Virus record (IMG/VR): IMGVR_UViG_3300020246_000082
Location: 1 to 25,778 of that record
Length of the DNA: 25,778 bases
DNA from: a virus
Strand: one strand, 5' to 3'
The position numbers and the translations under genes are program-made. Positions within the stretch are counted from its first letter, which is position 1, and every line of letters begins with the position of its first letter. The notes beneath the pieces were generated by a model. The model was not told the DNA's origin. It made no database searches and worked only from the letters and a program-made list of their open reading frames with translations. Shown here piece after piece: positions 3,375 to 25,778 of this stretch.

Positions 3375-3782
3375 GTGCCAATTTTGATGGCAGTCAATAG
3401 ATCCCACTCTTATAAAGATATTACACTCGATTTTGTACCAAATCCTGTAACAGGAGACTTAGGAGTACTTAAAAACGAGAGAGCAATCATGCGTTCTGTA
3501 AGAAATCTTGTCCAAACTAGAATAAATGAAAGATTTTACAGTGATGTTGGGTCAGAAGTATCAGATCTTCTCTTTGGTTTTTGTGATGTTGCAACTGGAG
3601 GAGTCATAGCAGACGAAGTTAGGACACTTATAGCAACATTTGAACCAAGAGTGATGAATGTTTCTGTAACAGCAGTGCCTAAACCTGACTTAAATGAGTA
3701 TGAGATGGAAATTAACTATCAAATTGTAGGACAACCAAGAGGTATACAGGGGTTTGCGTTCATTTTAGAGGCAACTAGGTAA
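3375..3782 (+). CDS. 25: baseplate wedge protein gp25
   Basis: A 135-residue protein of the gp25/TssE-like lysozyme-fold family, close to the 132 residues of T4 gp25. It starts with NRSHSYKDITLDF, has a central LKNERAIMRSVRNLVQT helix, and carries the conserved E-P-R motif (TFEPRVMNVSV, residues near 93-103) that marks the family. In T4, gp25 joins gp6 and gp53 in the wedge and helps start sheath assembly. The GTG at 3375 gives MPILMAVNRS. The ATG at 3387 gives MAVNRS and leaves a more comfortable leader of about 20 nt from the predicted late transcription start; either start is possible. gp6 follows after 4 bases, which fits the T4-like order. Confidence 0.92.
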   Translation: MPILMAVNRSHSYKDITLDFVPNPVTGDLGVLKNERAIMRSVRNLVQTRINERFYSDVGSEVSDLLFGFCDVATGGVIADEVRTLIATFEPRVMNVSVTAVPKPDLNEYEMEINYQIVGQPRGIQGFAFILEATR

Positions 3783-8700: not shown

Positions 8701-11700
8701 GATTCAAAGATGGCGAAGTTGTTCATTATAGCACAGATGGAGTTAGAATTACTGGTTTATCAACAACTGCACAGTATCAAGTATTAACAATTGACGACCA
8801 TAGTTTTAGATTATGCAATTCTGGTTTAGCAACCACAAGACTACCCGATCAAACAAATTATCTCAATAAGTTATACACTAGGTTTGATTCTACTGGTTCT
8901 GGATATCAAAACTTCTTTTATCCTGCGGTAACCGTTGATGTCAATGTTGTTACCAGTGATGACGCTAATAGAACCATAGAAGCATTTCCTATTGTTCGTG
9001 GTAAAGTTATTGACACCATCCTTTATGATGAAGGTCGTGATTATGGATCTAATATAATAAACTTTGAGAAAACACCCATTGTAACTACAAATTATGGTGA
9101 GTTAGGTCAAATTGGATTAACCATTGTTAATGGTAGAATAACAGATGCTTTCGTTCAAGCAGCAGGTCAAAACTATGACGGTCCTCCTGATTTAACAGTT
9201 GTTGGAGTAGGAACTGCTAATGGTGCTAGACTTCGTGCCATAATGAGTGGTGGATCAATTGATAAAGTTAAAGTTCTAGCATCAGGTGTTGGATATGCAT
9301 TATCAACAACATCAGTCACTGTTCTTCCACCAGGTAATGCTGCAACATTTGCTAGTAACATTAGAAAGTTAACAGGTAATAAATTTAAGACAAGTAAGAC
9401 AGTTAATGGAGACTATCTGGGTGCTGTTGAGGGTGGATTAGCAATAGAAAGTGTTGGATATGGTGAGACAGTTAGAACTGTATTTGATGATGATGGTGCA
9501 GGACACTCTCCAATCATAGGATGGGCATACGACGGAAACCCGATTTACGGTCCTTACGGATTTTCTGATAGAGATAATATTCAATCTGGTTCTAGAAGAA
9601 TGCTCACTTCTTACAAGTTAGATGCATCTAGAGTTAAGAATAGACCTAGCACAGGTGTATTTGAAGCAGGATACTTTACAGAAGATTATTACTATGATGC
9701 TAGTGGTGATTTAGATGAGCACAATGGTAGATTCTGCAAGACACCTGAGTTTACTCAAGGGATATATGCATACTTTGCAACTGTAGATAGCTTAGTTCAA
9801 CCTGAGTTTCCATACTACATTGGTCATACTTACAGAGGATTCCCAATAGCAGAGAACATACAAGTAGGTAATAAGATAAAACAAAGTAACTTTGATTTTG
9901 AAAATTCAGAATTAGTTAGAAATACAAATCCATACAATATGTTTGGTAGTGGTGTATCATATGATTATGTGGTTCAACCATACAAATCAATCAATAATAT
10001 TGCTTTCCCTGACAGAATATTATCTGGATCAATAGACAATATCAAAATTGTCCAACCAGGCGTAGGATATACCGTAGGCACACCGTTAACATTTGACAAC
10101 GCAGATACTGGAGGCACAAATGCGTATGCCATTGTTAATCAAATCAACGGTCAACCTGTAAGTAGAATTAGTACAATCTTTAATAAGTTTGAGGATATAA
10201 TATTTTCATGGGGTGGAGGAGATAGAGTTATTGCTCATAGAAAACCATTCCATCAATTAAAGCAAGATGACTTTATACAGGTTTCTGGATTGTCCACTAG
10301 TATTATTGGATTGACCGCATCTCATAAAATTAGTATAGTTGATTATTCAACAACTTTACTCGATGATGGATTTGTTGGTGTTGTAACTGATATTAGAGTA
10401 CAATCTATTGCTCCTACTGTTTCTGTTGGTGCTACAATTGGATTTTCAACACAAATAGTATCTGCAGGTATAGGAACAACTGTTGGTGTTGGATCAGAGA
10501 CTGCACAGATTTTAAATATATTCCCTGATGATCAAGTATTAAGAATTCGTAGATCAGGTGCTGCAGCAACTACAGGAATTCTTGGTATTGGAGTTTCATT
10601 CTTTACAGATCAAGCTATTATACCACTACCAGTTGCTTACTTTGAATCTCAACCAGATAGAAAACTATACTTCAACCCTCAAGAATCAGTTGGATTTGGT
10701 ACTACAGTATCTCAGACTATAACTAGACCCTATCAATACATGGGTGTCACAAAAGATAGATCGCTGTTAACAAGAACAATACATTTAGAGAATCATGGTT
10801 TAGAAACTAATGATGAGTTAAGATTTTCTGTCCCCACTGGTGGATCTCAGATTTCTTGTGCTACATCGGCAATATATGCAGGTACATTTAATTTTCCAAC
10901 TACAGTTTTTGCAGTTAAGAAGACTGAGGATACAATTGGTATAAAAACAACTAAAACTTCTTCTGATATAGTCTTTATCAGTGGAGGAACTGGTAGATAT
11001 GACTACTTAATTGAAAAAGTAGAACCAGTTAAAGTTACAGGTACAATAGAAAAAATAGCAACCACTATTGAAACTACTGCTGATCATAGTTTAGAAGATG
11101 GTGATATAGTTGATTTAATTGTAAAACCAGGTCTTACAACTGGTATTGGTACAACAACATACACTAAATTAAAAGTTATTGATGATTATTTGATTACCAA
11201 TCCTCTAGAAATTGCTGCATCTGGAATAAACACAACTACTAATAGAATTACATCAAATGATCATAGATTAGTTACAGGTGATAGGATATTATATTATGGT
11301 GCAAATTTACCAGATGGTATTACTCAAAAAGAATACTATGTTGTTAGAATAGATGATAATACAATATCTCTTACAAATACTTTTGCAGAAACAACAGGTG
11401 TACCAACACTTGTCAATATAACAAGTCAAGGTGGATCTGGACAGACAATTAACCCTATAAATCCTCAGTTAAGACCTTTCAAAAATAATGATTTAGTCTT
11501 TGATATGAGTGATCCTAGTTTAGCAGATTATCAACTAAAATTCTACTATGATACAAATTATTTCAATGAATTTGTTGGATCTGCTACAACTGATAGTTTT
11601 GAGGTTATTGGTGTAAGCACATTGTCAACTGTTGGTATTGGATCTACTATTCCTACCTTTGACAATCCATTCCACCCAACTACAGTTCTTAAATACTCAG

Positions 11701-14700
11701 ATACTTCACCAGAATTAATATTCTACAATGTATTTGGTGTTAGTGGTGTAGCAACTACTAAAAACACTGGTGTAGTCAATCAAGGTCAAATTAAGTATGT
11801 TGATAGTGGATACACAGGTAAATTTAACATAGTAGGTGTATCAAATACTGAATTTAAAGTCAATCTAAGATTTGCTCCTGAGTCTTTACAATATTCAGAT
11901 ACTGACTGTGATCAATTATCATATACAACTAAATCACCAACTGCTAGTGGTGGTATATCTTCAATTAGCATTCTTAACCGAGGATTGAACTATCAGTCAA
12001 TTCCTGGCATCAGTAGTGTTGCAGGATCTGGTTCTAATGCAATATTGATTGCAGAGTCTGTAGATATTAACAGATTAGCAGAAGTATCTGTTCCTGACGA
12101 TGTTTTTGGTTATCCTTCTGATAATACACTAAAACCAGATGCTTTCATACCTAGAGTTCTTACTATTGCTGATTACTCAACTATTGTAGATGTTAGAGTA
12201 TCATTTGGTGGTAGAGCATATCTTACTGCACCTCAACTGGTTATCTTTGATAAGTTAACAGGTGAAGTTGTAGAAAGTGGACTTATTACTTGTGAGTTAA
12301 GTGATTCTGCTGTTACAAGTGCAACTGTTAGTGTGCCACCTTCGGGATTGTCTGAAAACGAGTTTGGAGTAGCACCTATAAGAAATAGTAATGGTATTGC
12401 TGTACTAGAAGCGTTTGGTGAAGCAGGTGTATTGACATGTAAGATATCTACTCCAATTTTAGGATATAAGAAAGAACCTCTTGCAATAGGTGATTCTATA
12501 TTCTTAGAAGGTATTACATCATATGATGGCACTGGATACAACTCTGCAGATTATAAATTTACACCGTTCAGAGTTGCTGACTATAATAATGCAACAAACC
12601 CAAGACAGGTTACTTTTGATTATACTGGAATTACTACAAATCCTGGTATAGGTGCAACTGCAATCTATGGATTTGGTAATATAACTAAGTTTGGTAATCT
12701 TGCAACATTTGAGGTTACTAAAGGATTCTCATCATTTGTCCAAAATGAGAGATTTAAGAGAAATACCAATCCTCTTGCTGATGTTAGATTAGACTTTGTA
12801 AATGTCAATACAGCAAATATTATTGTTAGTGGTTCTGAAGATTTAGAGACTGGAGACATATTAGTAGGTAAATTAAGTGGATCATCTGCTAGAATTACTG
12901 GGGTAGAAGAATTTGATGGTAATTTCAATATTCAAGCATCCGTCAAAACAACAGTCGGTTGGAGAGACAATGTTGGATTAATTAATGATACAAACCAAGT
13001 ATTACCAGATAATGACTATTATCAAAACTTATCTTATGCTATTGAGAGTCCTAAGACATACGAAGACTTAATTACCTATGTAAACGATATTGTTCACCCA
13101 TCAGGTCTTAAAAACTTTGCTAACACTGAAATTATAACAGATGCAAACTTACCAGGTTACAAAGCTGTTGGAGAAACATTCCAACCTGCTGAAGATAAAG
13201 GTGGTTTAGTATTAGACTTTATTAATGACCCACTTAGAGTAGATGCAATATACCCATATGACTTAGCAAGAGATTTCCAAGCAGAGGGTAATATATCTAA
13301 ATTTGTAGAACTTAGAAGCACTAGATTAGCAGACTTTATACTAAACAAAACAAATAGAGTATTGATGCATGATGATATTAGTCCTCAGTTTGTTTCTAAC
13401 GATTCTAATGATTTAAGTCCATTTAGAATTGTTGCTAGTTATCCTTCTCCAAGAAAATTCCAAAGATTCTTTACTCAGACTGTTCATCAGGCAGAGGATC
13501 CTTCTAAGAACCAGTATCAGTTAAATGAGTTTATTTCAGTAACTGTTGGTGGAGATACATTCTTACTACAAAAATATGAAGCTAAGAATTATGATCAATT
13601 AGGTTTCACTACAAGTTATGTTCAGTTTGACACAGATTTCTATGGATCAACAACAAGTCTATTAATTAGACCTAATGAACCATTCGATACTGATTATGAG
13701 GTTAAAACTTTCCAATCAAACTTCTCTGATACTGTTGGAGTAGGAACTACCGTATTTGGTAAAATTAGACTAGAATCATCAGTTAGCACAGTGGGTGGAG
13801 CAAATACACTAGGAGTTGCTCTCACAACTAATGTTCTTGGTGTTTCTACACTAACAACTCAAGCTGCTGTATTACAATTTGTTGTAAGTGACCTAACAAC
13901 TAGTCAAGTTGATTACTTTGAATATGCAGCAATGCATAATGGTTCTGACACATATCTAACAGAATTAGCAGCATTTAACTCAAAACAAAATTTAAGTGGT
14001 TTATCCTCACCTGAGTTTATTGGAACTATAACTTCTCAGATAGATGGCGGTTTATTAAAGTTTGATTTTGAGAATGGAAGTCAGAATACAGTCGAAGTTA
14101 AGTCTAAAATGATTGCTGTAGATCCTGTTGGTCTAGGAACTACAACTTACAGATTTAAGAACTCTGTATTTGACCCAGATGGAACTGAGAGATCTGCTAG
14201 AATAGAAACTGTAAGTCAAGCAAAAGCAGGTATCGCTACCGTTTGCGGTATTGCTAGTATTAGAGATTTATCTGTTAAGTCAACAGTTCATGTTGCAATC
14301 GGTGATACTCAAACAATACAACAAATTTACCTATTAACTGATCCTTATAATCAACAAAACTTTATAACTGAGTTCCCATTAGCATCAATTGGTGCTACAA
14401 TGGGAATAGGTACATTTGGATCTACATATAGACCTGACGGTCAAATCAATCTTGAGTTCCATCCATCTGTTTCTGGTATAGTTAGTGTTACTTCGTTTAA
14501 CGAAATCTTCTATCTCAATAAAGATCCTAACGGTACTTTAGAAGGTATTGGTGAACTTACCTATGGATCTGCTTTTGAGAGCGTTGCACAAGCAGTATAC
14601 TTAGGAATAAACAACAGAGATAGTAGATCATTTGCGATAACACATCAGGGTACTCCAATATATGCACAAGAAACCAACCCTGCTGACCCTAATGCTCTTA

Positions 14701-17700
14701 TTAGAGATACAGGTACATTTAAACAAAAGCACTTCTTCCAGACTTTTGAGCAACTAATATACAAACCAGACTCAAACCTAATAGGTATTGGCGGTACTGC
14801 TCTAGTATATCAGACAGGTGCAGGTGTAACTGGATATCTTCCTGACCTTGTTTACGCAATAAGAGATAATGACGAAGAATATAGAATAGCATTAACTAAG
14901 AATGACGCAATAGCTGGTACTGCTGTTACCTTCTTACCTAACACAGGTGCGGGTAATAAGCACAGATTCTCAATGGCAAAGAGAGATTCTAAGACAATGG
15001 TAAGTATTAGCGGTCTTGTACAGAAACCAATTGCTTTCACATCAGTCAATTATGAACTAGATGTTCCTGTTGCAGGATTTGTTACCGCATTTGTACTAAG
15101 TGGTATAGGATCTATTCTATCTGGAGATCTTATTAGAATTGAAGATGAATATTCTATTGTAAGGAATGTTGGTTTAGGTACAACCAGTTTAGGTCCTGCG
15201 GTCGGTATAGGAACTTGGAGTCTAGTTGAAGTGGAAAGAGGTGCAGTTGGAACTGCTGCTACTCCACACGCTGCAGGAGAACCTGCTAGGATCTTTAGAG
15301 GGTCATATCAGATATTAGATAGTAATATACATTTCACACAAGCACCTCTTGGTGGAGACTTAGGTATAGTTAATCCAAATAACTTACCATATCCTAGAGC
15401 AACATTTGGTGGAAGAACATTCTTAAGGCAAGATTATCTTAAAAACCAATTGTTTGATGATATATCTAACTCATTTGACGGATTAGAAACTACCTATCCA
15501 TTAACATCTACAGGTGCTGCTGTTACTGGTATTGGTACAACAGGTGGTAACGGTGTATTATTCATCAATAATATATTCCAAGCACCATTTAGTGAGAACA
15601 ACCCAGATGCTAACTTTAAGATTATTGAACAGGCAGGTATTAGTTCTGTACAATTTACTGGTGTTAGTTCGCAAGGATTCTCGACACCGATAATAGACAT
15701 TGGTGATGTCAATGAAAATCAATTACCGAGAGGTGGAATTATTATATCCGCAGGATCTACGCCAGGTAGAGGATATGCTCCATTCATAGGTGCAAAAGTA
15801 TTCCCTGAGATAGATTCAAATGGTAATATTACAAATATTGTTGGAGTTCCTACTGTAGAGGGCACAGGATTCCAGATTAGCACCGCAAACTATGACAATG
15901 TAACAGGTATATTGTCAGTAACAACCGCAACAAATCATGGTTTAACTATTGATGATCAAATAAAACTTGTTGGATTATACTTTACATGTCCTAAAGATGA
16001 TGTAGGAACTCCTACAAACTTTGTGTACAATCCTGCAACTGGCATATCAACAGTTACTTTAGCTAATCATGGATTGTCAAATGGAGATGCAATTAGTTTC
16101 AGAGCTAACTCATTGACTCTTAGTTGTACAATGGGAACTGGTAATAAGACATATCCTCGTCCAACTGATCCTCTTGCAGGTAATGGTCAATATCTAACGG
16201 TGTCTAATGTCACTACAAACACCTTCAGAGTTAATGTAGGTGCTGCAGGTAGTAATGTTTACTGGAACCCTACAGACGCAGACTACGATCCTAACGCAGG
16301 TATCATGACAGTAACCATTGGTACACATGATCTATATGTTGGTAAAGGTGTTGTAATACCTGACAACTCATTCTCATTTACTTGTTTACAAGATGGTAAT
16401 ACTTCTGTTAAGACATATCCTCGTGCTACTGACCCTGTATCGGGTGCATCTATTGATGTTGTCGCAGTTGGAACAGCAACAGCAAATATATCTACCGCAA
16501 TTTACGATCCTACAGCAGGTATTTTGACAGCAACATCCGCAGGTCATAATCTCATGGTGGGTAATAGAATACAAATTGCGGGTAATTCTCTAACATTTAC
16601 ATGTAGTAAAGACAATCACGCAACTTATCACCCATATCCTAGACTAGGTGACCCAATAAGAGATAAATGGGTTGCGGTAGCAAGCACAACAGTTAATACA
16701 TTCTCTATTGATGTGGGATCATCTAGCGGATTGTATCCTCATTATGATGCAAGTGAACATAGACTTTACTCTGTTGCTACGGGTGCGTTGATAAAACAAA
16801 CGGGAACCATTGATCTTAATGTCGGTACAGGAGGAACTGGTACATCTGCACATACTTTTGTTAGTGCTGCTACAAGTTCAGTACAGCATTTACCACAATC
16901 TGCACATACATTTGTATCAGCAGCAACAAATGCCGTTCAAACTCTTAACTATGTTGGTGTTACAACTAACATCTTCCCTGATTATGATCAGTCTACTGAT
17001 ATAACACAGATTGTATCACCTACAATATTCAACACTTTTGTAGGACCTAGCACTATACCTCACATATACAATGGTGGTGGGTCACCATACGCATTTAAGT
17101 ATTTGGATGATCTAACATTTGGTTCTGGTTATAATCAACTTTTAGGTACAGTATCAATAGGTGTATCTGATTCAGTAGGTACAGGAGCGACTATAACAGC
17201 AACTGTAGGTGCAGGTGGTTCATTAATCTTCAGTATTGGTGCTGCAGGAACTGATTACTCTAGTAATACAGAATTATTTGCTCCTGATCCTAACGGAGGT
17301 AATTTAGGAATACAAGGTCTTTACAGACTTGGACTAGGAAATACAACAACTACAGGTGTAGGTGCTTCTATTACAGTTGATATAATTGGAGTCAGCACTA
17401 ATACAGGTGTGGGTGCTACATTGTTTGAAGTAAAAGAATGGGAGTTTAGTAAACCTGGTTATGGATTTAAGATAGGTGATAAATTCACATTAGCTGGGTT
17501 ATCAACTGATCCTACTGCAGGTGATGAGTTTGAACAATTTGAAATAGAAGTTCTCAATATATTCAATGATGATATTTCTGCATATCAATTTGGTCAGTTA
17601 GATTATATTGACAATATCAAACCATTCCAAAATGGAAGAGATAAGAGATTCCCACTTTACTATGAGAACCAACTAGTAAGTTTTGAGAAAGATTTAGATG

Positions 17701-18923
17701 ATCCACAATCTAGACTTATACAGTTAGATGCTGTTCTTTTAATATTTGTAAATGGTGTGCTTCAAGAACCTGGCATAAACTATGAGTTTAACGGAGGAAC
17801 ATCAATATCATTTGATGCTGCACCAACATCAGAGGATGATATATTCATATTCTTCTATAGAGGAACAGTTGGTCAAGATAGTTTTATATTTGATGTTAAT
17901 GAAACTATTAAAGAAGGTGATATAATAGAATTATTCAAGAGTGCAGAACTTGAACTTAACAATGTTGCTAAAGATACAACTAATTTTGCACAGAGAGATG
18001 AAAGAATAATTCAAAGGATTGCAACAGCATCTATTGTTGAAACACCATTCTATCAAGGTAGTGGTGTTAACAATAATGATTTCAAACCACTAAGATGGAA
18101 TAAACAAAAACAAGATATTGAGTATGGTGGTGGATTAATTTCTAAAGCAAGAGATCAAAGTGAGGCACAAATAACACCTATTTGTAATGTCATAGCATCT
18201 ATTGCTTCTACTGACACATTCTTGTTTACTAATCATACAGAAAGATTTAGAGATCTTGATGGCAACTTAGCAGATCCATTTAGTTTATTCGTACAAGCTG
18301 CAAATGTAGGATTTGGAACTACTGCACAGGCAGGTGTTAACTATGAGGTTTGGGGTGATGTTACACCTGACAATAATAATGTTAAAGGTTATATTGGTCT
18401 TATTACTGGTATAACAACATCAGCAGGTATTGGAACTGATCTTGGTCTTGTATTACAGTTAGATACTAACAATCTAATTAATGAATTTAACTCATCTTAT
18501 GTACAAGACCTAGAAGCAGGTTACCCAATCCAAGTTTATGGATCAGGAATACAACCTGTTGCAGGTGTGATTACAAGTATTGATAGTCATGATTCCGATA
18601 TAGTCGGTATCAGCACCTTTGATGTGGACAATATATACTATGTCTCTGCTATATCTTGGGATGGTAGTTCTAGAACAGGTGTTATTACATGTAACATACA
18701 CTCTGGAACTGATGTAAGTGGACTGGTTGGTGTTGGTTCAACACTGCATCCTGCAGCAAGATTAACATGGGGAAAATTCTCTGGAGCGTTAAGAAGCGTT
18801 GCATATCCTCTTGGTATATCTGTCAAAGGTTTGAATTACAATCAAGACCTAGACGAATGGCCAACCGCCAAGCGTATGAATATTGGGTTGCGTAATACTG
18901 GAGCACTCAATAAAACCTTATAA
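5712..18923 (+). CDS. giant modular structural protein in gp7 position
   Basis: One uninterrupted frame encodes 4403 residues, about four times T4 gp7 (1032 aa), and occupies the gp7 slot between gp6 and gp8. The N-terminus (TPEFAKAENPLLEEFLKQYY, and a LYESKGTDESFKILFKALFGLEP segment near 200-220) looks like the wedge-anchoring part. Residues about 83-135 hold a DEIITYTG...CTRGFSGI module. At 1265-1380 there is a YHYH-type domain (GWAYDGNPIYGPYGF, then DEHNGRF and GIYAYFAT). Short modules recur throughout: about nine I-x(3)-V...G-x-G-Y units, several NHG-x(3)-GD units and about twenty G-I/V/L/F-G-T/A/S turns. Residues 3394-3725 form a repeat array. The segment near 4009-4050 (LIFVNGVLQEPGINYEFNGG) is an adhesin-type beta module. 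There is no signal peptide and no long hydrophobic segment. Inferred role: wedge scaffold extended into a surface or fibre protein. The gp7 link rests on position and N-terminal resemblance. Confidence 0.88.
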   Translation: MIETYSPLSSRVKTYQVVGDQTPEFAKAENPLLEEFLKQYYISQEHQGGSLDIGENIDKYIKIDNLTKEVVAGVATVASGIDSTTDTITVSPNTKGFPQEYGLLKIDDEIITYTGVTTNTFTGCTRGFSGITTYRTVNDPYNLTYTSTTPAEHDSGANIQNLSALFLQEFYTKLKAQYTPGLEGVTLSPTLDVNNFIKEARSLYESKGTDESFKILFKALFGLEPKINDLEQYLIKPSYANYLRRQSFAVRVISGDPLNLIGQTLYQDNEVGNDLVNAASGPISDVVQIRDDYYRISVFIGFDDRDLIEGNFVIPGKTQAIGTIGIGATVITVDSTIGFGKTGTFQVGVADDSFYQTLDYTEKTVNQFIGVTTALKEIPSATELYAPTLVYGFENNDLSKRVNMRLTGVISGFESLQNLYGLTEQSRIQVKNLGRYVKNPPTDQTYSQVFFNSWIYNTSARYEIEQFFGTTFTLKGRIDKASLKKNDTVEIVIRNTQTVVQTGLNVNFVNTALNQVTLSGTFTAGSGIDYDIRRVQEKASSSTVEVIGGQDQILADVTNTYILDAKYSPTNLKEGYVASNSIPSYDIITEKITATLTDPKIGNADFEGYDVLTNRYTILSFSSSVPFKTGEEISYVPRGNTVPIGGLTRASFFVEVLAQNNKIKLYQSRSFIPSGISVGFVPTELPTGIHDFVRVEQARKSIFPSGSLKRFILDQNLTDGTKPKTTSEQTQTGTTGMLVNGVEITNYKSDKCIYYGPVKSFDIVNAGEGYDVSFPPSVGFETSTTGINTAYGRVSVAGTVTGILVDPVEYEIKNVVSVDIHGGNGSGARAEAITELAYRSLTFNAKKFAIGGDIDVSSDRFILDKEHFYKTGDRVIYNANNNNPIALSTSTAIGVDTGLVQGQSYYVGVAATNIFQIYRNKTDAVSGVNTISFGSTAGDSNIGIHQFNDYETKRRISRIAIIDSGSGYTNRKISVDPAGSIGGISTVRDFVEFPNHGFKDGEVVHYSTDGVRITGLSTTAQYQVLTIDDHSFRLCNSGLATTRLPDQTNYLNKLYTRFDSTGSGYQNFFYPAVTVDVNVVTSDDANRTIEAFPIVRGKVIDTILYDEGRDYGSNIINFEKTPIVTTNYGELGQIGLTIVNGRITDAFVQAAGQNYDGPPDLTVVGVGTANGARLRAIMSGGSIDKVKVLASGVGYALSTTSVTVLPPGNAATFASNIRKLTGNKFKTSKTVNGDYLGAVEGGLAIESVGYGETVRTVFDDDGAGHSPIIGWAYDGNPIYGPYGFSDRDNIQSGSRRMLTSYKLDASRVKNRPSTGVFEAGYFTEDYYYDASGDLDEHNGRFCKTPEFTQGIYAYFATVDSLVQPEFPYYIGHTYRGFPIAENIQVGNKIKQSNFDFENSELVRNTNPYNMFGSGVSYDYVVQPYKSINNIAFPDRILSGSIDNIKIVQPGVGYTVGTPLTFDNADTGGTNAYAIVNQINGQPVSRISTIFNKFEDIIFSWGGGDRVIAHRKPFHQLKQDDFIQVSGLSTSIIGLTASHKISIVDYSTTLLDDGFVGVVTDIRVQSIAPTVSVGATIGFSTQIVSAGIGTTVGVGSETAQILNIFPDDQVLRIRRSGAAATTGILGIGVSFFTDQAIIPLPVAYFESQPDRKLYFNPQESVGFGTTVSQTITRPYQYMGVTKDRSLLTRTIHLENHGLETNDELRFSVPTGGSQISCATSAIYAGTFNFPTTVFAVKKTEDTIGIKTTKTSSDIVFISGGTGRYDYLIEKVEPVKVTGTIEKIATTIETTADHSLEDGDIVDLIVKPGLTTGIGTTTYTKLKVIDDYLITNPLEIAASGINTTTNRITSNDHRLVTGDRILYYGANLPDGITQKEYYVVRIDDNTISLTNTFAETTGVPTLVNITSQGGSGQTINPINPQLRPFKNNDLVFDMSDPSLADYQLKFYYDTNYFNEFVGSATTDSFEVIGVSTLSTVGIGSTIPTFDNPFHPTTVLKYSDTSPELIFYNVFGVSGVATTKNTGVVNQGQIKYVDSGYTGKFNIVGVSNTEFKVNLRFAPESLQYSDTDCDQLSYTTKSPTASGGISSISILNRGLNYQSIPGISSVAGSGSNAILIAESVDINRLAEVSVPDDVFGYPSDNTLKPDAFIPRVLTIADYSTIVDVRVSFGGRAYLTAPQLVIFDKLTGEVVESGLITCELSDSAVTSATVSVPPSGLSENEFGVAPIRNSNGIAVLEAFGEAGVLTCKISTPILGYKKEPLAIGDSIFLEGITSYDGTGYNSADYKFTPFRVADYNNATNPRQVTFDYTGITTNPGIGATAIYGFGNITKFGNLATFEVTKGFSSFVQNERFKRNTNPLADVRLDFVNVNTANIIVSGSEDLETGDILVGKLSGSSARITGVEEFDGNFNIQASVKTTVGWRDNVGLINDTNQVLPDNDYYQNLSYAIESPKTYEDLITYVNDIVHPSGLKNFANTEIITDANLPGYKAVGETFQPAEDKGGLVLDFINDPLRVDAIYPYDLARDFQAEGNISKFVELRSTRLADFILNKTNRVLMHDDISPQFVSNDSNDLSPFRIVASYPSPRKFQRFFTQTVHQAEDPSKNQYQLNEFISVTVGGDTFLLQKYEAKNYDQLGFTTSYVQFDTDFYGSTTSLLIRPNEPFDTDYEVKTFQSNFSDTVGVGTTVFGKIRLESSVSTVGGANTLGVALTTNVLGVSTLTTQAAVLQFVVSDLTTSQVDYFEYAAMHNGSDTYLTELAAFNSKQNLSGLSSPEFIGTITSQIDGGLLKFDFENGSQNTVEVKSKMIAVDPVGLGTTTYRFKNSVFDPDGTERSARIETVSQAKAGIATVCGIASIRDLSVKSTVHVAIGDTQTIQQIYLLTDPYNQQNFITEFPLASIGATMGIGTFGSTYRPDGQINLEFHPSVSGIVSVTSFNEIFYLNKDPNGTLEGIGELTYGSAFESVAQAVYLGINNRDSRSFAITHQGTPIYAQETNPADPNALIRDTGTFKQKHFFQTFEQLIYKPDSNLIGIGGTALVYQTGAGVTGYLPDLVYAIRDNDEEYRIALTKNDAIAGTAVTFLPNTGAGNKHRFSMAKRDSKTMVSISGLVQKPIAFTSVNYELDVPVAGFVTAFVLSGIGSILSGDLIRIEDEYSIVRNVGLGTTSLGPAVGIGTWSLVEVERGAVGTAATPHAAGEPARIFRGSYQILDSNIHFTQAPLGGDLGIVNPNNLPYPRATFGGRTFLRQDYLKNQLFDDISNSFDGLETTYPLTSTGAAVTGIGTTGGNGVLFINNIFQAPFSENNPDANFKIIEQAGISSVQFTGVSSQGFSTPIIDIGDVNENQLPRGGIIISAGSTPGRGYAPFIGAKVFPEIDSNGNITNIVGVPTVEGTGFQISTANYDNVTGILSVTTATNHGLTIDDQIKLVGLYFTCPKDDVGTPTNFVYNPATGISTVTLANHGLSNGDAISFRANSLTLSCTMGTGNKTYPRPTDPLAGNGQYLTVSNVTTNTFRVNVGAAGSNVYWNPTDADYDPNAGIMTVTIGTHDLYVGKGVVIPDNSFSFTCLQDGNTSVKTYPRATDPVSGASIDVVAVGTATANISTAIYDPTAGILTATSAGHNLMVGNRIQIAGNSLTFTCSKDNHATYHPYPRLGDPIRDKWVAVASTTVNTFSIDVGSSSGLYPHYDASEHRLYSVATGALIKQTGTIDLNVGTGGTGTSAHTFVSAATSSVQHLPQSAHTFVSAATNAVQTLNYVGVTTNIFPDYDQSTDITQIVSPTIFNTFVGPSTIPHIYNGGGSPYAFKYLDDLTFGSGYNQLLGTVSIGVSDSVGTGATITATVGAGGSLIFSIGAAGTDYSSNTELFAPDPNGGNLGIQGLYRLGLGNTTTTGVGASITVDIIGVSTNTGVGATLFEVKEWEFSKPGYGFKIGDKFTLAGLSTDPTAGDEFEQFEIEVLNIFNDDISAYQFGQLDYIDNIKPFQNGRDKRFPLYYENQLVSFEKDLDDPQSRLIQLDAVLLIFVNGVLQEPGINYEFNGGTSISFDAAPTSEDDIFIFFYRGTVGQDSFIFDVNETIKEGDIIELFKSAELELNNVAKDTTNFAQRDERIIQRIATASIVETPFYQGSGVNNNDFKPLRWNKQKQDIEYGGGLISKARDQSEAQITPICNVIASIASTDTFLFTNHTERFRDLDGNLADPFSLFVQAANVGFGTTAQAGVNYEVWGDVTPDNNNVKGYIGLITGITTSAGIGTDLGLVLQLDTNNLINEFNSSYVQDLEAGYPIQVYGSGIQPVAGVITSIDSHDSDIVGISTFDVDNIYYVSAISWDGSSRTGVITCNIHSGTDVSGLVGVGSTLHPAARLTWGKFSGALRSVAYPLGISVKGLNYNQDLDEWPTAKRMNIGLRNTGALNKTL
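9504..9850 (+). other. YHYH-type domain inside the giant protein
   Basis: This part encodes about residues 1265-1380. Marks of the YHYH family (Pfam YHYH, function unknown) are PIIGWAYDGNPIYGPYGF at about 1267-1284, then LDEHNGRFCKTPEF, GIYAYFAT and FPYYIGHTYRGFP. The usual order of these blocks is complete. The motif that gives the family its name reads YAYF here, so both histidines are missing. The domain interrupts stretches of beta-rich repeats and has a much higher aromatic content than its surroundings. It is probably a folded unit exposed on the particle; its ligand is unknown. Confidence 0.75.
15891..16788 (+). repeat. five-unit imperfect protein repeat array
   Basis: In the giant gene, units begin at tyrosine codons 15891, 16026, 16284, 16503 and 16743 (residues 3394, 3439, 3525, 3598 and 3678). 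The full unit reads Y-[DN]-P-x-[AT]-G-[IL]-x-[TS]-[VA]-T, then [NTG]-H-x-L-x(2)-G, then NS-[LF]-[TS]-[LF]-[TS]-C, then YPR-x(2)-DP, then a V-x-x-T-x-N-T-F-x-V-[ND]-V-G strand. Unit 1 is cut short after its FTC core (45 residues to the next start); the others are 73-86 residues apart. The fifth unit keeps only the YDAS start and passes into the SAHTFVSAAT repeats. One cysteine is kept in each of the first four units. Copies are diverged at the DNA level. Confidence 0.8.
16845..16928 (+). repeat. two SAHTFVSAAT repeats, 18-residue period
   Basis: SAHTFVSAAT is encoded at 16845-16874 and again at 16899-16928, exactly 54 bases apart; the flanks (SSVQ and NAVQ) also match. The codons differ at nearly every synonymous position (for example AGT against TCA for the same serine). 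The protein sequence has therefore been kept while the DNA drifted. The repeats close the larger array and may form a beta-turn edge or a docking strand. Confidence 0.75.
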
Positions 18924-18961: not shown

Positions 18962-20533
18962 ATGGCAGCAATTATAACCGATCAATTTAGGATTATCAAC
19001 GCTAACAACTTTATGAAAGATGTTACTAGCGGTGATAACTCTTACTATGCTTTTCTTGGATTAGCAAATCCTACAGTATCGGGATTCGGACGCACAGATA
19101 CTTGGAATAGCACAACTATTCAACCGCCATCACCTGTAGATAGTATTAACTATAATAACCATGTATATGATACTATGCTTTTTGGAAGGAAAGTATTTCC
19201 TGGTGATGTAAGAAGATTAATTAGAAAAGTAAGTTGGACTAAAGGTACATCATACGACATGTATCGTCATGATTATAGCACAACTAATCGTTCTTTGGTA
19301 TCTAACTCTAGTAGATTATATTCAGCAAATTATTATGTTATGAATAAGGACTTTAGAGTCTATGTTTGTATTAATAATGGATCTGCGGGTATAACTACGA
19401 TTGCTAGTGCGTCATTAGATGAACCAGGTTTTACAGATTTGGAACCATCTGCTGCAGGTGTAAGTGGTGATGGTTATCTCTGGAAGTATATGTTTACAGT
19501 TCCTCCTGCGGATATTGTAAAATTTGACTCTACTGAATATGTTGCTGTTCCTAACGATTGGGAAACAACTATTGATGCAGATGTAAAGGTTGTTAGAGAT
19601 AATGGTGACTCAACTGTTAATAATAATCAAATTAAGGTTGTATCTATAGATAATCCTGGCAGAGGATATAACTTCCTTTCTAGTCCTATAGAAGTTGATA
19701 TATTAGGTGATGGGTCTGGAGGAAAAGTAAGAATCTTAACCAATACAAACGGTGAGATTATACAAGCACAAGTAACTCAAGGGGGACAAGGTTACAGTTA
19801 TGGGCGTGTTGATCTATCTACTATTAATTCTAATGCTACGACTTTTGCAAAGTTAACACCTATTATACCACCAAGTTTAGGTCATGGGTTTAATGCGTAC
19901 AAAGAGTTAGGAACTGATAAAGTTTTAATATACACTAGATTTGATGCATCATCTTATGACTTTGTACCTGATACAATATTTGGTCAGGTTGGATTAGTTA
20001 GAAATCCTCAAGCAGTTGGTGCTTCTGGAACTACCTTCTTACAAACATCAGAATTTTCTGCATTAAAATCAATTAAGTTTACAGGAGATACATCACAAGC
20101 TCTTGGCATTGGTACAGTTATAGAACAAAATATAACTGGTGTGGGAACTGCTAGAGGTTATGTTGCGTCTTACGATATTGATACGCAGGTAATTAAATAT
20201 TTCCAAGATAGGACATTATCATTCAACCAATCACTATATGATCAGACTGATAGTAATGATGTTGCTAATCAAACTCCAGTCTTAGAATTTACATCAACTG
20301 CGAATGCTATTACTAGTACCGCATTTAGTGTTAATGTAGATACAACCTTCAGTGGCATATCTACTGTTACTCCTGCAGGTAGAACTGTTGATTTAGGAGT
20401 TCAATTTACAAATGGGATTGCCGATGCTGAGATAAATAAACGCAGCGGTGATTTAATTTATCTTGACAATAGACCCTCTATTACAAGAAATGAGCGTCAA
20501 AAAGAAGACATTAAAATCGTATTAGAGTTCTAA
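18962..20533 (+). CDS. 8: baseplate wedge protein gp8
   Basis: A 523-residue protein with the conserved opening of T4-like gp8 in marine phages: ITDQFRIINANNFMKDV, SYYAFLGLANPT, FGRTDTWN and YDTMLFGRKVFPGDVRRLIRKVSWT, then YDMYRHDYS and ANYYVMNKDFRVYVCI. The SGDGYLWKYMFTVPPADIVKF segment and STEYVAVPNDW are also characteristic. It is longer than T4 gp8 (334 aa). The extra length holds two G-x-G-Y units (NPGRGYNF and QGGQGYSY) like those of the giant protein upstream. gp8 dimers sit in the wedge next to gp6 and gp7. The ATG at 18962 has only a weak ribosome-binding site. It is followed after 4 bases by the DUF4815 gene. Confidence 0.9.
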   Translation: MAAIITDQFRIINANNFMKDVTSGDNSYYAFLGLANPTVSGFGRTDTWNSTTIQPPSPVDSINYNNHVYDTMLFGRKVFPGDVRRLIRKVSWTKGTSYDMYRHDYSTTNRSLVSNSSRLYSANYYVMNKDFRVYVCINNGSAGITTIASASLDEPGFTDLEPSAAGVSGDGYLWKYMFTVPPADIVKFDSTEYVAVPNDWETTIDADVKVVRDNGDSTVNNNQIKVVSIDNPGRGYNFLSSPIEVDILGDGSGGKVRILTNTNGEIIQAQVTQGGQGYSYGRVDLSTINSNATTFAKLTPIIPPSLGHGFNAYKELGTDKVLIYTRFDASSYDFVPDTIFGQVGLVRNPQAVGASGTTFLQTSEFSALKSIKFTGDTSQALGIGTVIEQNITGVGTARGYVASYDIDTQVIKYFQDRTLSFNQSLYDQTDSNDVANQTPVLEFTSTANAITSTAFSVNVDTTFSGISTVTPAGRTVDLGVQFTNGIADAEINKRSGDLIYLDNRPSITRNERQKEDIKIVLEF

Positions 20534-20537
20534 GAAG

Positions 20538-23500
20538 ATGCCACAACAGACCAACCTCAACATAAGTCCTTATTACGACGACTTTGACAGAACCAAGAAT
20601 TTTCATAGAGTTCTATTTAAACCAGGATTTCCTGTTCAAGCTCGTGAACTTACGACTATGCAGTCTATTCTGCAGAATCAAGTTGAACAATTTGGTAGTC
20701 ATATATTTAAAGAAGGATCTGTTGTAGTACCTGGCGGTATTACTTTTGATCCAGAATATTTTGCAGTACAGTTAGACGGAACTCATTTAGGAACTGATGT
20801 TGAAGTATATCTAGGTGCACTTAAAGGTAAAAAGATAAAGGGTCAAAGTTCTGGTGTAGTAGCAAAGGTAATTAATTGTATAACTGCATCCGAATCTAAT
20901 AATAATAATCCAACAATATATGTAAAATATATCTCACCAGGTCCTAGTGGATCTTTTGATTTTTTTGATAACTCAGAATTACTTATATTAGAGGATTCAG
21001 TAACTTATGGTAATACAACATTAAATTTAGGATCTTCTATAGCATCAACTATTACTGTAGATGCATGCCTAACAGGATCAGCAGCAAGTATAGCAAGTGG
21101 TGTTTATTTTGTAAGAGGTAGTTTCGTTAGAGTTAACGAACAGACACTTATATTAGATCAATATACAAATGATAGCACATACAGAGTAGGTTTGCAAGTT
21201 GTTGAGACAGAAGTTGCTGCAAAAGAAGATAACTCTTTATATGATAACGCAAAAGGATTTTCTAACTTTGCTGCACCAGGCGCTGACAGATTAAAGATAG
21301 AATTAATTCTTGCTAAAAAACCAATTACTGATTTTGATGATACTGACTTTATAGAAGTTGTTAGAGTCAGAGAAGGAACTATTGAGAAAGAAAATAATAA
21401 CAACTCACAATATAATTTAATTTTAGATTATCTTGCAAAAAGAACACATGATGAATCTGGAGATTATGCACTAAAACCATTCATAGTTGATGTACAAGAA
21501 AGTTTAAATGATCGTCAAGGAAGTGGCGGTGTTTATTTTGAGAATGAAATTACAAGAGAAGGAAGAGAACCAAATGATGATATAACTGCTGTTAAAATAT
21601 CACCAGGTACTGCGTATGTAAGGGGATATGAATTTTCTACACAAGGAGAGATAATTGACTGTCCTAAAGCAAGATTCTTAACAGAAGAATTTATTGAGCA
21701 GTCATTCACATTTAGATTAGGAAACAAACTTATAGTACAGGATGTCAATGGTAATCCTACACAGGGATCTACAATTGATTTGCAAAGTGGTATTAGTAGT
21801 TCTGTAATTGGGTCTGCAAAAGTATATAATTTTGCATTGTCAGATGCAAAGTATAAGGATAATTCAACTGAGTTTGATTTACATTTATTTGATGTACAAT
21901 TATTTAATAATATAGAATTAAATGAGTATGCTACATGGCCAAGATCAATAACTATTGAAGGTGGTGAGAGTGGTGCTAGAGGTATTGCTGTTACTGCAGG
22001 AACTGCCAGTAGTTCAATAACAGTACAAAATGTATCTGGTAGATTTTTAGATGGAGAACAAATTATATTTACTAATGATTATAATCTAACAAGATCTGCA
22101 CTTAAAGTAAACAGATATGATATTAACAATGTAGAGAATCTATCACAAACTGGATTCTATGCTAAGAAAAAATTATTTAATGTGCTACCTGTAGGATTTG
22201 ATAAGACTGATCCTGTAGAAATTGCCACTAACGGAACTGTCACATGTCCTGGCAAAACATTTGAAGTATTCAAACCTAATCAAATTATAACATATACAGT
22301 ACCTGCTGCATCTTTACCTAGTCGTAATGTTGTAACTGAAGTTGCTGCAGATGGCAGCACTATGAAACTAGCTGCACTAACATCAGTTCCACAAATATAT
22401 AATGGAGCTTTACCTAGCAGCACATACACAGGTGCAATATTTTTAGGTCAACAACAGTTATCTAAAGAAGATAATTCTGGTTTATATCTACCACTTCCTA
22501 AAGCACCTATTGGTGAAGTAGACCTTACTGACGCAGAATTATTATTAAGTGATCAGGTAACAAATGAATCAACAGATGCTAATGGAGTATTAGTTGTAAA
22601 CACTAGTGCTTTGAGTCTCAATGATGTTACTTTTGTAGCATTTGACCAAGAGAGATATCAAGTAACTTATAGTGATGGAACAATTGCAACGATAGACGAT
22701 TCTCAAGTTGTCATAACAAGTGACACATTAACAATTAATAATTTACAATTCTCAGAGACTGGTATAGAAGTTAATGTAACTGTTGTTAAAAGTAATATTA
22801 GAAGTAAAGTAAAAGAATTTAAGAAGAGTCAGTCAGTTACTATAACAAGATCTTCTAATGCTGCATCTGGTTCTAATTCTAATATTAGTCTTAACGACGG
22901 ATTAACAAATTCAGCACTCTATGGTTTAAGAGTACAAGATGCCGATATATCCTTAAATTGTCCTGATGCTGTAAATGTAGTTTGTATCTATGAATCATTA
23001 GATGCAAATGCTCCAATATTTGATAAGTTAGCATTTACATCAACTGACCCTATTTTCCAAAATGCTATTGTTGGTGAAAATATAATTGGTGAGACATCAA
23101 ATGCTGTTGCTAGAATTGTAGAAGTTGATGCAGGTAATAGTAATATTAGTATTGTATATCAAACTCTTGATAAATTTACTCTTCTTGAAAATTTAACATT
23201 CAGTGAATCTAATTCTACTGCAGTTTTACAAAATATTATTAACGGTAAGTTTAAAGATATTACAGATAGTTATCTTTTAGATAAGGGTCAGAAAGAGCAA
23301 TATTATGGATATTCTTTCATATCAAGACTTAATGATAATTATATACCAACAAAACAAATTACAGTTATATTTGATAAGTATGATATTCCATCTACAGATA
23401 CTGGAGATGTATTTACTGTTGCTAGTTATGACCCAGAGAGATTTACTAAGGATGTCCCTGAGATTGGTATAGGTTTAAAGAGAGCAACTGATACACTTGA

Positions 23501-25778
23501 TTTTAGACCAAGAGTTCCTGCTTACGATCCTTCAACTGCAGTATACAGTCCATTTGATCCTTGGAATAGAAATAATATTTTAGGCACTACAAGAACACTA
23601 ACACCAAACGAATCTTCTAAATTTAAGTTTAAACACTATCTTGCCAGAATGGACAAGTTAGTTCTTAAACCTAGCGATGGTATGGTATTGCTTCAAGGTG
23701 TAGATCAAGAAGTTCCTCAACCACCTGCTGATCAACCAGATGCTATGACGATAGCAACTATTGTTTGGCCACCATATACATTTGATGTTGAAGATGTACA
23801 AATATTCCTAGTTGATAATCGTAGATACACAATGCGTGACATTGGTGTAATTGAAGATAGAGTGCAACATCTAGAGAATGTTACAACACTATCTTTCTTA
23901 GAGCAAAAAATTGAGAATTTACAAATTAAAGATGCTGATGGACTTGATAGATTTAAGAGTGGATTCTTTGCAGACTCATTTAAGAGTAGAGATTTAACTG
24001 ATCCTGCATCACCTGTTGATATTGATATTAAAAAAGGCATGATGATGCCATTAAAAGATTTCAATTCAATAGATGTTAATCCAGTCCCATCATCAGAAGT
24101 TCCTCCTGAGCAATTAGATAATGAAGTAGACTATGCTTTATTAGATGAGAATACTCAGAAAACTGGTAGAATGGTTTCTCTTAAGTATGAAGAAGTACCA
24201 ATGGTTGAACAAACTTTTGCTACTAGAGTAGAAAACTTAAACCCATTCTTAGTCCACGATTATACAGGTACATTAAAATTAAATCCTACAAGTGATAACT
24301 GGATTAATACTGTAAACACAACAGGAGTAACAAAGACTAAAACCATTAAGAGACAAAATGTAGATACTAGAGTTAGTCTAACAGAAATAAATGGTGGATT
24401 TGGTGAAGATGCATTATCATTAACTTCTAGAGATAGTGTTCAAAAAGTTGAAAGAGATGATATTACATCAGAAAATACTTTTATAGAAAGTGAGACATTT
24501 GATCCTTTCATAAGATCAAGAAATATAGAATATAGAGCAAGTGGATTAAGACCAAACTCTAGATATTATCAATTCTTTGATGATCTAGGAAATGTAGATG
24601 TTGTCCCTAAAATTATAGGTGTCGATAATGTTGTTGGTGCATTTTCTGTTGGAGAAACAATTACAGCATTAGTTAATGGTGAGACATATCGTTTTAGACT
24701 TTGTAGACCAGATCATAAAAAAGGACCTTTCGCTGCTCCTACAAAAACATATCAAACAAATCCTTTAGATATAAACGAGACATTACCTACAGCATATTCA
24801 CAGGGTTCTACTGTAATTAATATTGATACTGCAGCACTTGCTCAATCAGCACAAGGAGACTTCTTTGGTTTCCTTCCTGTAGGAACTGTGGTGGCAGGAC
24901 AGACTAGTGGTGCACAGGCAACAATTAGAAATCTAACATTAAATTCAGATGGATTTGGTGATTTAATTGCTGCCATGTGGATTAGAGATCCATATTCAAC
25001 ACCAGAACCACTTGCAAAAATTAGATCTGGTGAGAGAGAAGTTAAGGTTACTACTGATAATAATAACTTAGAAGATATTAGAGGTGGAACAACTATATCA
25101 GATGCAACTGCTATATTTTCTGCAACAGGAACTACAAGAGTCATACAAACTGATGTAAGTGTAACAACATTAGAGACTACAACAATACAAAGAGATGTAA
25201 CTATTACATTTACTAATAGAACAACTCCACCACCTCCACCACCTCCTGCACCTGTTATAATCAGACAAGAGGTAGTAGTAGAAGCTCCACAAAGAGGAAG
25301 AAGAAGTCGTTGGAGAAGAAGGAATAGATGGAGGAGAAGATTACGAAGGAGAAGGAGAAGAGGAAGAAGAGGAAGGAGAGGTGGAAGAGATCCCTTGGCA
25401 CAATCATTCAGAGTGGGTGAGGAAGGAGCATATGTAACATCAGTTGACATATTCTTCGCTGAGGTTGAAGATCCAGCTGTGCCTTGGTGGGTAGAAATAA
25501 GAACAATGGAAGTGGGATTACCAACAGAACAATTGGTATCTCCTGATGCTAGAGTTGATTTAGATGCTAGTGAAGCATTAGTTTCTTCTGATGCATCAGT
25601 TCCAACTAATATTGCATTCCCATGTCCAATATACTTAGAACCTGATACAGAATACTGTTTTGTTGTAGGATCACCTTTCAACACATACGAAGTATTTACA
25701 GCAGAGATGGGTCAGACTGCTCTGAACGCACAGCAGTTACCTGCAGCAGCAGGAAATGTTTATAGTAACCAGTTCTCA
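20538..25778 (+). CDS. DUF4815-type structural protein, open at right edge
   Basis: The frame starts at ATG 20538 (four bases after gp8) and stays open to the last base: 1747 codons, no stop, so the gene is partial at its 3' end. The N-terminus reads SPYYDDFDRTKNFHRVLF, KPGFPVQARELTTMQSIL and FGSHIFKEGSVV, the signature of DUF4815 tail or baseplate proteins found after gp8 in marine T4-like phages. The middle is beta-rich, with VKISPGTAYVRGYEF near residue 351. The final conserved part starts DPLAQSF (about 1618) and runs through VTSVDIFF and WWVEIRT. Between them are seven prolines (residues 1564-1570) and a 32-residue segment with 22 arginines (1586-1617). Inferred role: outer baseplate or host-contact component. 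The arginine segment is the unusual part. Confidence 0.85.
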   Translation, partial: MPQQTNLNISPYYDDFDRTKNFHRVLFKPGFPVQARELTTMQSILQNQVEQFGSHIFKEGSVVVPGGITFDPEYFAVQLDGTHLGTDVEVYLGALKGKKIKGQSSGVVAKVINCITASESNNNNPTIYVKYISPGPSGSFDFFDNSELLILEDSVTYGNTTLNLGSSIASTITVDACLTGSAASIASGVYFVRGSFVRVNEQTLILDQYTNDSTYRVGLQVVETEVAAKEDNSLYDNAKGFSNFAAPGADRLKIELILAKKPITDFDDTDFIEVVRVREGTIEKENNNNSQYNLILDYLAKRTHDESGDYALKPFIVDVQESLNDRQGSGGVYFENEITREGREPNDDITAVKISPGTAYVRGYEFSTQGEIIDCPKARFLTEEFIEQSFTFRLGNKLIVQDVNGNPTQGSTIDLQSGISSSVIGSAKVYNFALSDAKYKDNSTEFDLHLFDVQLFNNIELNEYATWPRSITIEGGESGARGIAVTAGTASSSITVQNVSGRFLDGEQIIFTNDYNLTRSALKVNRYDINNVENLSQTGFYAKKKLFNVLPVGFDKTDPVEIATNGTVTCPGKTFEVFKPNQIITYTVPAASLPSRNVVTEVAADGSTMKLAALTSVPQIYNGALPSSTYTGAIFLGQQQLSKEDNSGLYLPLPKAPIGEVDLTDAELLLSDQVTNESTDANGVLVVNTSALSLNDVTFVAFDQERYQVTYSDGTIATIDDSQVVITSDTLTINNLQFSETGIEVNVTVVKSNIRSKVKEFKKSQSVTITRSSNAASGSNSNISLNDGLTNSALYGLRVQDADISLNCPDAVNVVCIYESLDANAPIFDKLAFTSTDPIFQNAIVGENIIGETSNAVARIVEVDAGNSNISIVYQTLDKFTLLENLTFSESNSTAVLQNIINGKFKDITDSYLLDKGQKEQYYGYSFISRLNDNYIPTKQITVIFDKYDIPSTDTGDVFTVASYDPERFTKDVPEIGIGLKRATDTLDFRPRVPAYDPSTAVYSPFDPWNRNNILGTTRTLTPNESSKFKFKHYLARMDKLVLKPSDGMVLLQGVDQEVPQPPADQPDAMTIATIVWPPYTFDVEDVQIFLVDNRRYTMRDIGVIEDRVQHLENVTTLSFLEQKIENLQIKDADGLDRFKSGFFADSFKSRDLTDPASPVDIDIKKGMMMPLKDFNSIDVNPVPSSEVPPEQLDNEVDYALLDENTQKTGRMVSLKYEEVPMVEQTFATRVENLNPFLVHDYTGTLKLNPTSDNWINTVNTTGVTKTKTIKRQNVDTRVSLTEINGGFGEDALSLTSRDSVQKVERDDITSENTFIESETFDPFIRSRNIEYRASGLRPNSRYYQFFDDLGNVDVVPKIIGVDNVVGAFSVGETITALVNGETYRFRLCRPDHKKGPFAAPTKTYQTNPLDINETLPTAYSQGSTVINIDTAALAQSAQGDFFGFLPVGTVVAGQTSGAQATIRNLTLNSDGFGDLIAAMWIRDPYSTPEPLAKIRSGEREVKVTTDNNNLEDIRGGTTISDATAIFSATGTTRVIQTDVSVTTLETTTIQRDVTITFTNRTTPPPPPPPAPVIIRQEVVVEAPQRGRRSRWRRRNRWRRRLRRRRRRGRRGRRGGRDPLAQSFRVGEEGAYVTSVDIFFAEVEDPAVPWWVEIRTMEVGLPTEQLVSPDARVDLDASEALVSSDASVPTNIAFPCPIYLEPDTEYCFVVGSPFNTYEVFTAEMGQTALNAQQLPAAAGNVYSNQFS
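25293..25388 (+). repeat. purine-rich tract encoding 22 Arg in 32 codons
   Basis: Almost every base on the + strand here is A or G, made from AGA, AGG and GGA codons, with only a few T or C (CGT, two TGG, one TTA, CGA). It contains many GGAGG/AGGAG-like strings that resemble Shine-Dalgarno sites. The encoded segment has 22 Arg, 5 Gly and 2 Trp with single S, N and L, and no acidic residue. A seven-proline run lies 46 bases upstream (25227-25247). Simple-sequence expansion is a likely origin. Confidence 0.8.

Follow-up and report, generated by a model that had tools for sequence, protein, structure and literature searches.

The window, by which we mean the whole stretch of DNA analysed (25,778 nucleotides, IMG/VR record IMGVR_UViG_3300020246_000082), ends inside a long gene whose product carries a proline run, an arginine-only tract and a DPLAQSF domain. 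The features of this gene are as follows.

20538-25778, plus strand: gene for a DUF4815/VrlC (VriC) baseplate protein, its 5' 1747 codons; it continues past the window end.
23619-24320, plus strand: top-scoring part of the match to the Pfam DUF4815 profile (residues 1028-1261).
25227-25253, plus strand: proline run PPPPPPPAP, start of the slot; seven Pro at 25227-25247, then Ala-Pro to 25253.
25254-25292, plus strand: hypervariable linker VIIRQEVVVEAPQ, that is VIIRQEVVVEAP (12 residues, 25254-25289) plus Gln (25290-25292).
25293-25388, plus strand: Arg-only tract of 32 residues with 22 Arg, 2 Trp and no Asp, Glu or Lys; predicted to be disordered.
25389-25778, plus strand: DPLAQSF domain, predicted to be lectin-like (jelly-roll) from an AF2 model and from fold and sequence matches; its last codons lie beyond the window.

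A preliminary description of this DNA had taken the protein for a structural, DUF4815-type part of a baseplate, and profile searches agree with it. Pfam PF16075 (DUF4815) matches the window protein with E 1.6e-53 and 182.3 bits, against a curated cut-off of 30, and phrog_358 matches residues 1-1732 with 1321 bits. The closest annotated relatives are cyanophage structural proteins named VrlC/VriC, at about 42% identity. Intact homologues are about 2440 aa long (2440 aa in the full-length protein of contig L003), and in longer contigs about 820 aa follow from the start of DPLAQSF onward. The genes on the 5' side match baseplate wedge PHROGs (3375-3779, 3787-5703, 5712-18920 and 18962-20530), the last of these, directly before the DUF4815 gene, matching gp8 of P-SSM2; the gene thus lies in a T4-like baseplate wedge neighbourhood. 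Judged by these matches, the window protein belongs to the DUF4815/VrlC family and to the baseplate of a T4-like marine phage. The only tie to T4 gp10 is that S-CAM22 and S-SZBM1 carry the annotation "baseplate wedge tail fiber connector". The reading frame at 5712-18923 alone fills about 13 kb of the window; the 4403-aa protein that it encodes matches a baseplate wedge PHROG with 4179 positions. At 951-2127, 5' of the baseplate genes, two ORFs of 197 and 213 aa overlap, and each of them matches PHROG 81, a 2OG-Fe(II) oxygenase family.

The frame 20538-25778 translates to ...TNRTTPPPPPPPAPVIIRQEVVVEAPQ-RGRRSRWRRRNRWRRRLRRRRRRGRRGRRGGR-DPLAQSF..., and the full reading from the hinge to DPLAQSF is TTPPPPPPPAPVIIRQEVVVEAPQRGRRSRWRRRNRWRRRLRRRRRRGRRGRRGGRDPLAQSF, the ORF being open at the window end. 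The seven-proline hinge and the segment with 22 Arg in 32 residues that had been described before DPLAQSF are exact on this translation. The charge had been called unusual, and it is far beyond chance: Arg makes up 3.9% of the ORF outside the slot, while the binomial probability of at least 22 Arg in 32 residues is about 1e-21 even at 5.1% Arg. An artefact of sequencing or assembly in the purine tract had been considered as well. The same Arg core is found in frame on at least nine further contigs (L002-L010) from different marine samples and is written in ordinary Arg codons, which rules out assembly as the origin of the tract. In Arg-rich slots the Arg codons are AGA (0.69), AGG (0.13) and CGT (0.10), and in the remainder of the same proteins AGA (0.76), CGT (0.09) and AGG (0.08). 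Because the two mixes resemble each other, the purine tract is mostly a matter of codon preference. CGN codons are frequent in the Arg-rich slots of L150 and L147, and these, together with the codon mix and the independent contigs, also disfavour slippage in a purine tract as the origin. On the minus strand an antisense ORF of 280 codons (24842-25684) runs across the slot; it has 282 codons in G001 and 77-166 in sister contigs and is probably due to chance, because its reading frame is broken up in the sisters.

The slot, from the proline run up to DPLAQSF, was modelled as disordered, with pLDDT about 24-32 over most of residues 190-300 in a model of the 1121 C-terminal residues of L003. Its contents vary widely. 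Some relatives have no insertion, and a plain strand (..FYDPLAQSF or ..VGWYDPLAQSF) leads into the domain; others carry a Pro run and an N/T/V-rich stretch whose end is acidic, or else Pro/Val, Pro/Arg or Arg tracts, the largest with 28 Arg in 40 residues. A run of seven to ten Pro is common to close sisters, with or without the Arg block, therefore hinge and Arg block are separable. The N/T/V sisters (L011-L019, L035) share this Pro run with the window, and L012 also has the same neighbouring genes. Identity over the C-terminal 1100 residues is about 66-69% for L011-L016 and 60% for L018. They differ from the window in a slot that reads INNTTVIDNTVT.. and has an acidic or neutral net charge, and in a remainder of the protein that is about 35 charges less acidic. 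Variation on the smallest scale is seen between L007 and L008, where nonsynonymous codons number 11 of 46 aligned in the slot, 2 of 493 upstream and 0 of 130 downstream. Almost all of these slot changes fall in the linker and the Arg core is kept; no change from Arg to Lys was found in any pair among seven close relatives.

The DPLAQSF domain is present in about 1000 records. Searches made without selection on the slot yielded 66 distinct slots, of which 11 were Arg-rich (at least 12 Arg in 40 residues), seven of these in the window's clade when L033 is counted in. The segment is therefore not one that nearly all DUF4815 relatives possess, which would have made it commonplace. An Arg-only tract was found in none of 23 phage records, which are mostly of cultured cyanophages, Ackermannviridae and Herelleviridae with a few single-cell records. 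On a tree of 148 DPLAQSF domains the Arg-rich label changes 13 times, 10 of these changes being forced by well-supported branches; the tree is the product of a quick search, and some label changes lie near the threshold of 12 Arg. Part of its loci came from a search pattern biased towards Arg ahead of DPLAQSF, so the tree informs on recurrence and not on frequency. Read in this way, it indicates that Arg-rich states arose repeatedly, with at least 10 changes. A good example is the Arg tract of L098 and L102, whose nearest cultured relatives, SynMITS9220M01, Bellamy and S-SM2 (61-65% identity), are without the Arg block, and at that site the cultured relatives of L098 run from ..VGWY directly into DPLAQSF. 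This comparison clearly points to a separate, independent gain of Arg. The opinion that such charge is unexpected in a baseplate part can accordingly be kept in so far as the tract is not general among relatives, and has to be given up in so far as it recurs at the same spot in several separate lineages. A motif R-x-R-x-R before DPLAQSF, which appeared in one profile, was produced by the search pattern and is absent from the set not selected on the slot.

Arg is used in these slots almost to the exclusion of Lys. The ratio of Arg to Lys is 473:2 in 29 distinct Arg-rich slots and 2470:2123 in the remainder of the same proteins (p 2e-115); among loci found without selection on the slot it is 174:1 in the slot and 849:922 in the remainder. 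A single transition turns AGA into AAA. In AT-rich genomes such as these, where one transition would suffice, the near-absence of Lys is difficult to account for unless the guanidinium group itself is selected. A need to avoid slippage on poly(A) could help to keep out runs of Lys, and it would still permit single Lys codons.

The charge of the slot is also related to the charge of the rest of the chain. In the window's clade, proteins with a slot charge of -7 to -1 have a remainder of -64 to -72, and the remainder goes to -83 with a slot of +9, to -89 with +15, to between -103 and -107 with +20 to +22, and to -112 with +33. The whole protein of L003 is strongly acidic despite its tract, with a net charge of about -84. 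Phylogenetic contrasts of slot against remainder charge, which presuppose Brownian change, gave a slope of -1.03 (p 5e-5) for 50 proteins and of -1.08 (p 2.6e-6; rank test p 4e-4) for 84 proteins. Within the window's clade (14 contrasts) the slope is -1.23 with r -0.91, and outside of it -0.87 (p 0.024; p 0.07 when all branch lengths are set equal); L187 and L272 are contrary cases. The analysis is exploratory: the data first brought the relation to notice, and the tests then used those proteins together with added ones. By these values the remainder of the same protein makes up for slot charge at a ratio of about one to one, more weakly outside the window's clade. Most of the compensation comes from gain of Asp and Glu and, in the window's clade, also from loss of Lys and Arg. 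As a control, 20 other alignment blocks were treated in the same way and none was compensated (mean slope near +0.2), which speaks against total charge being constrained in general. The acids that compensate are scattered through the protein, somewhat denser at about residues 200-350, 950-1150, 1500-1550, 1650-1750 and 2150-2300, a distribution equally compatible with a global charge constraint and with docking of the tract. An acidic partner encoded by a neighbouring gene was rejected: in a comparison covering the orthologous gp8, the 4400-aa wedge protein, the small downstream proteins and the fibre, net charge and the most acidic stretches are similar in the Arg and N/T/V clades, small differences being left in gp8 of the window's clade and in the fibre. 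One of the small downstream genes, at 8658-8870 of L003, follows the DUF4815 gene; its product of about 70 aa contains a KKKKKK run in the Arg clade and only scattered Lys in the N/T/V clade.

The domain that follows the tract was modelled by itself with AF2 (pLDDT 84.5). Its predicted fold matches that of the solved baseplate DUF4815 protein of phage phi812, with Z 18.4-21.4 and rmsd 2.2-2.9 over 156-157 residues at 31% identity, and its sequence profile matches residues 792-949 of phi812 ORF65 with E 6.7e-26, so that the DPLAQ[ST]F domain can be assigned the fold of this homologue. A jelly-roll is further indicated by matches to the lectin-like domain of Cwp84 (4d59/4ci7), with Z 11.7-12.0 over 133 residues, while structure entries of CBMs score lower (Z 5-8). 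Searches with the whole C-terminal part gave weak fold matches, and those with the single domain clear ones. In the pre-contraction structure of phi812 (PDB 9euf) the domain aligns to chain residues 792-950, and in the post-contraction structures (9eui and 9euj) the range is 584-949, which may be a quirk of alignment or a rearranged first strand. In total ORF65 (PDB 9euf, 9eui, 9euj) resembles the window protein in DUF4815 similarity along the protein, in DPLAQSF at residue 792 and in the same lectin-like fold, and differs in its length of 1152 aa in comparison with about 2440 aa. It probably has no Pro/Arg insertion, judging from its relatives among Herelleviridae, EF24C and Goe24, where a plain strand leads into DPLAQSF.

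Related proteins have been described in phages of Gram-positive hosts. According to a paper on Bacillus phages, the "Tail fiber/VrlC" proteins Deep-Blue Gp176 and Vp4 Gp120 carry two CBMs, the first of which (about 811-963) matches the Cwp84 lectin-like domain, and the homologues of Deep-Blue, Vp4 and Listeria phage A511 (Gp176/Gp120/Gp106) form pyramids on the tail fibre (PMC11406892). The same paper has Gp106 of A511 reorienting to the cell wall on attachment, and a review proposes VriC as a downward prong in Ackermannviridae (PMC11721090). These three proteins are like the window protein in their VrlC annotation and in the part matched to the Cwp84 domain (811-959), and like phi812 ORF65 in size (about 1150-1170 aa). 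They are unlike it in their hosts, no Arg tract is mentioned in that account, and reorientation is reported for A511 and not for the window lineage. Through phi812, a shared domain and the annotation suggest that they are equivalent to the window protein. Cyanophage VrlC/VriC proteins (S-T4, Sf-CH8, S-SM2, P-SSM2, Bellamy) are homologues with DPLAQSF or DPLAQTF whose slots, unlike that of the window, are plain (..VGWY), mixed Arg/Glu (S-T4, Sf-CH8) or of another kind, none being Arg-only. From the predicted fold the DPLAQSF domain is a probable surface-binding, lectin-like domain, and, with the published VrlC relatives, this means that the Arg tract would be joined directly to such a domain.

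We conclude from sequence comparison that the Arg tract is probably not noise but a charged tether under selection. Our working interpretation, to which we would give a chance slightly short of even, is that of a charge-balanced guanidinium tether beside a surface-binding domain, docking on the acidic body of its own protein and/or on envelope polymers. The slot would be a tolerant, disordered insertion site at the N-terminal edge of the lectin-like domain, filled with an Arg-only tract in the window lineage and separately in others, where selection would keep Arg. Before attachment the guanidinium groups would rest on the unusually acidic body of their own protein or of adjacent copies; when the baseplate protein turns cellward they would engage anionic envelope groups next to the lectin-like domain, and this contact would add weak, sequence-tolerant adhesion. 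Self-docking, reorientation in the window phage and contact with envelope polymers are steps that we infer. A further-reaching version, in which the slot is a hotspot for repeated, independent, Lys-free and acid-balanced Arg tracts that act as a switchable latch, docked in the free virion and released as a lure to host polymers, is rather doubtful. The preliminary description had named three targets: DNA at the tail tip, lipopolysaccharide or other anionic surface polymers, and a partner held by charge. An anionic surface polymer seems to fit best, since the lectin-like domain that directly follows the tract is part of a protein that probably meets the cell surface. Holding a partner by charge fits too, the partner indicated being the same protein and not a neighbour, and no finding speaks positively for DNA at the tail tip.

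It is also conceivable, although on balance unlikely, that charge balance is all there is: the tract would pair with acids of its own oligomer and hold the lectin-like domain as an assembly or pre-attachment latch, with no host contact. One-for-one compensation inside the same protein, absent from other blocks, agrees with this, as does the small shift of gp8, the 4400-aa wedge protein and the downstream fibre; diffuse acids do not, a latch cannot be generally needed when sisters with neutral or acidic slots keep the gene intact, and simple charge pairing alone leaves the near-absence of Lys unexplained. That same lack of Lys, at 473:2 with AAA one transition away from AGA, weighs against functionless low-complexity filler made by purine-tract slippage in an insertion-tolerant linker. 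Filler would account for the wide variation in slot length and content, for a linker part that differs between near-identical phages and for AGA/AGG being most of the Arg codons; it would not lead one to expect a codon mix like that of the remainder, CGN codons in L150 and L147, an Arg core kept without any change from Arg to Lys in seven close relatives while the linker is not, or recurrent gains on the tree. We consider filler improbable, and of the rivals it fits the composition data worst.

Equally improbable is a nucleic-acid-binding arm at the tail tip, one that would act on phage or host DNA or RNA in the manner of protamines or of the Arg-rich termini that some viral capsid proteins have. 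Protamines, and Arg/Trp antimicrobial and cell-penetrating peptides, are Arg-rich disordered tails, and 22 Arg with 2 Trp in 32 residues, with Arg preferred over Lys, would suit such an arm. The likeness is one of composition only: the window tract is an internal tether in a putative virion protein, free of Lys and with compensating acid in the same chain. Moreover, the protein is a peripheral one of the baseplate for which no link to the DNA channel was found, its tract adjoins a lectin-like domain, and it is strongly acidic overall. Still less probable is a translational pause, with the upstream part folding or oligomerising first while ribosomes are slowed at a domain boundary. Proline runs and polybasic nascent chains can both slow ribosomes, and here they stand together at such a boundary, but compensation elsewhere in the protein is not predicted by a pause, and in many relatives one or both elements are missing.

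Among open-licence papers we found nothing on Arg-rich baseplate tethers, on the function of DUF4815 or on DPLAQTF. The family and the fold were already known; no description of an Arg-only, charge-compensated and recurrent occupant of the slot was found in this literature. VrlC/DUF4815 proteins are very widespread and little characterised in marine T4-like phages, Ackermannviridae and Herelleviridae. Arg tracts with acid in the same chain offer a testable idea, namely non-specific electrostatic adhesion without a baseplate that sticks to itself or to debris, and the slot is a natural swap site for linker experiments. Its alternative occupants include N/T/V/I-rich repeats (INNTTVIDNTVT.. and TNVTNVTEVTNVTNVT..) in L011-L019 and L035 and in L132, L148 and L173, which look like short beta-repeat stalks by their sequence. 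The cultured cyanophages Sf-CH8 (L228) and S-T4 (L283) fill the slot with a repeat of mixed Arg and Glu, which reads REIRTREIRTREVVREVQRR in Sf-CH8 and is possibly a self-neutralised version of the Arg tract.
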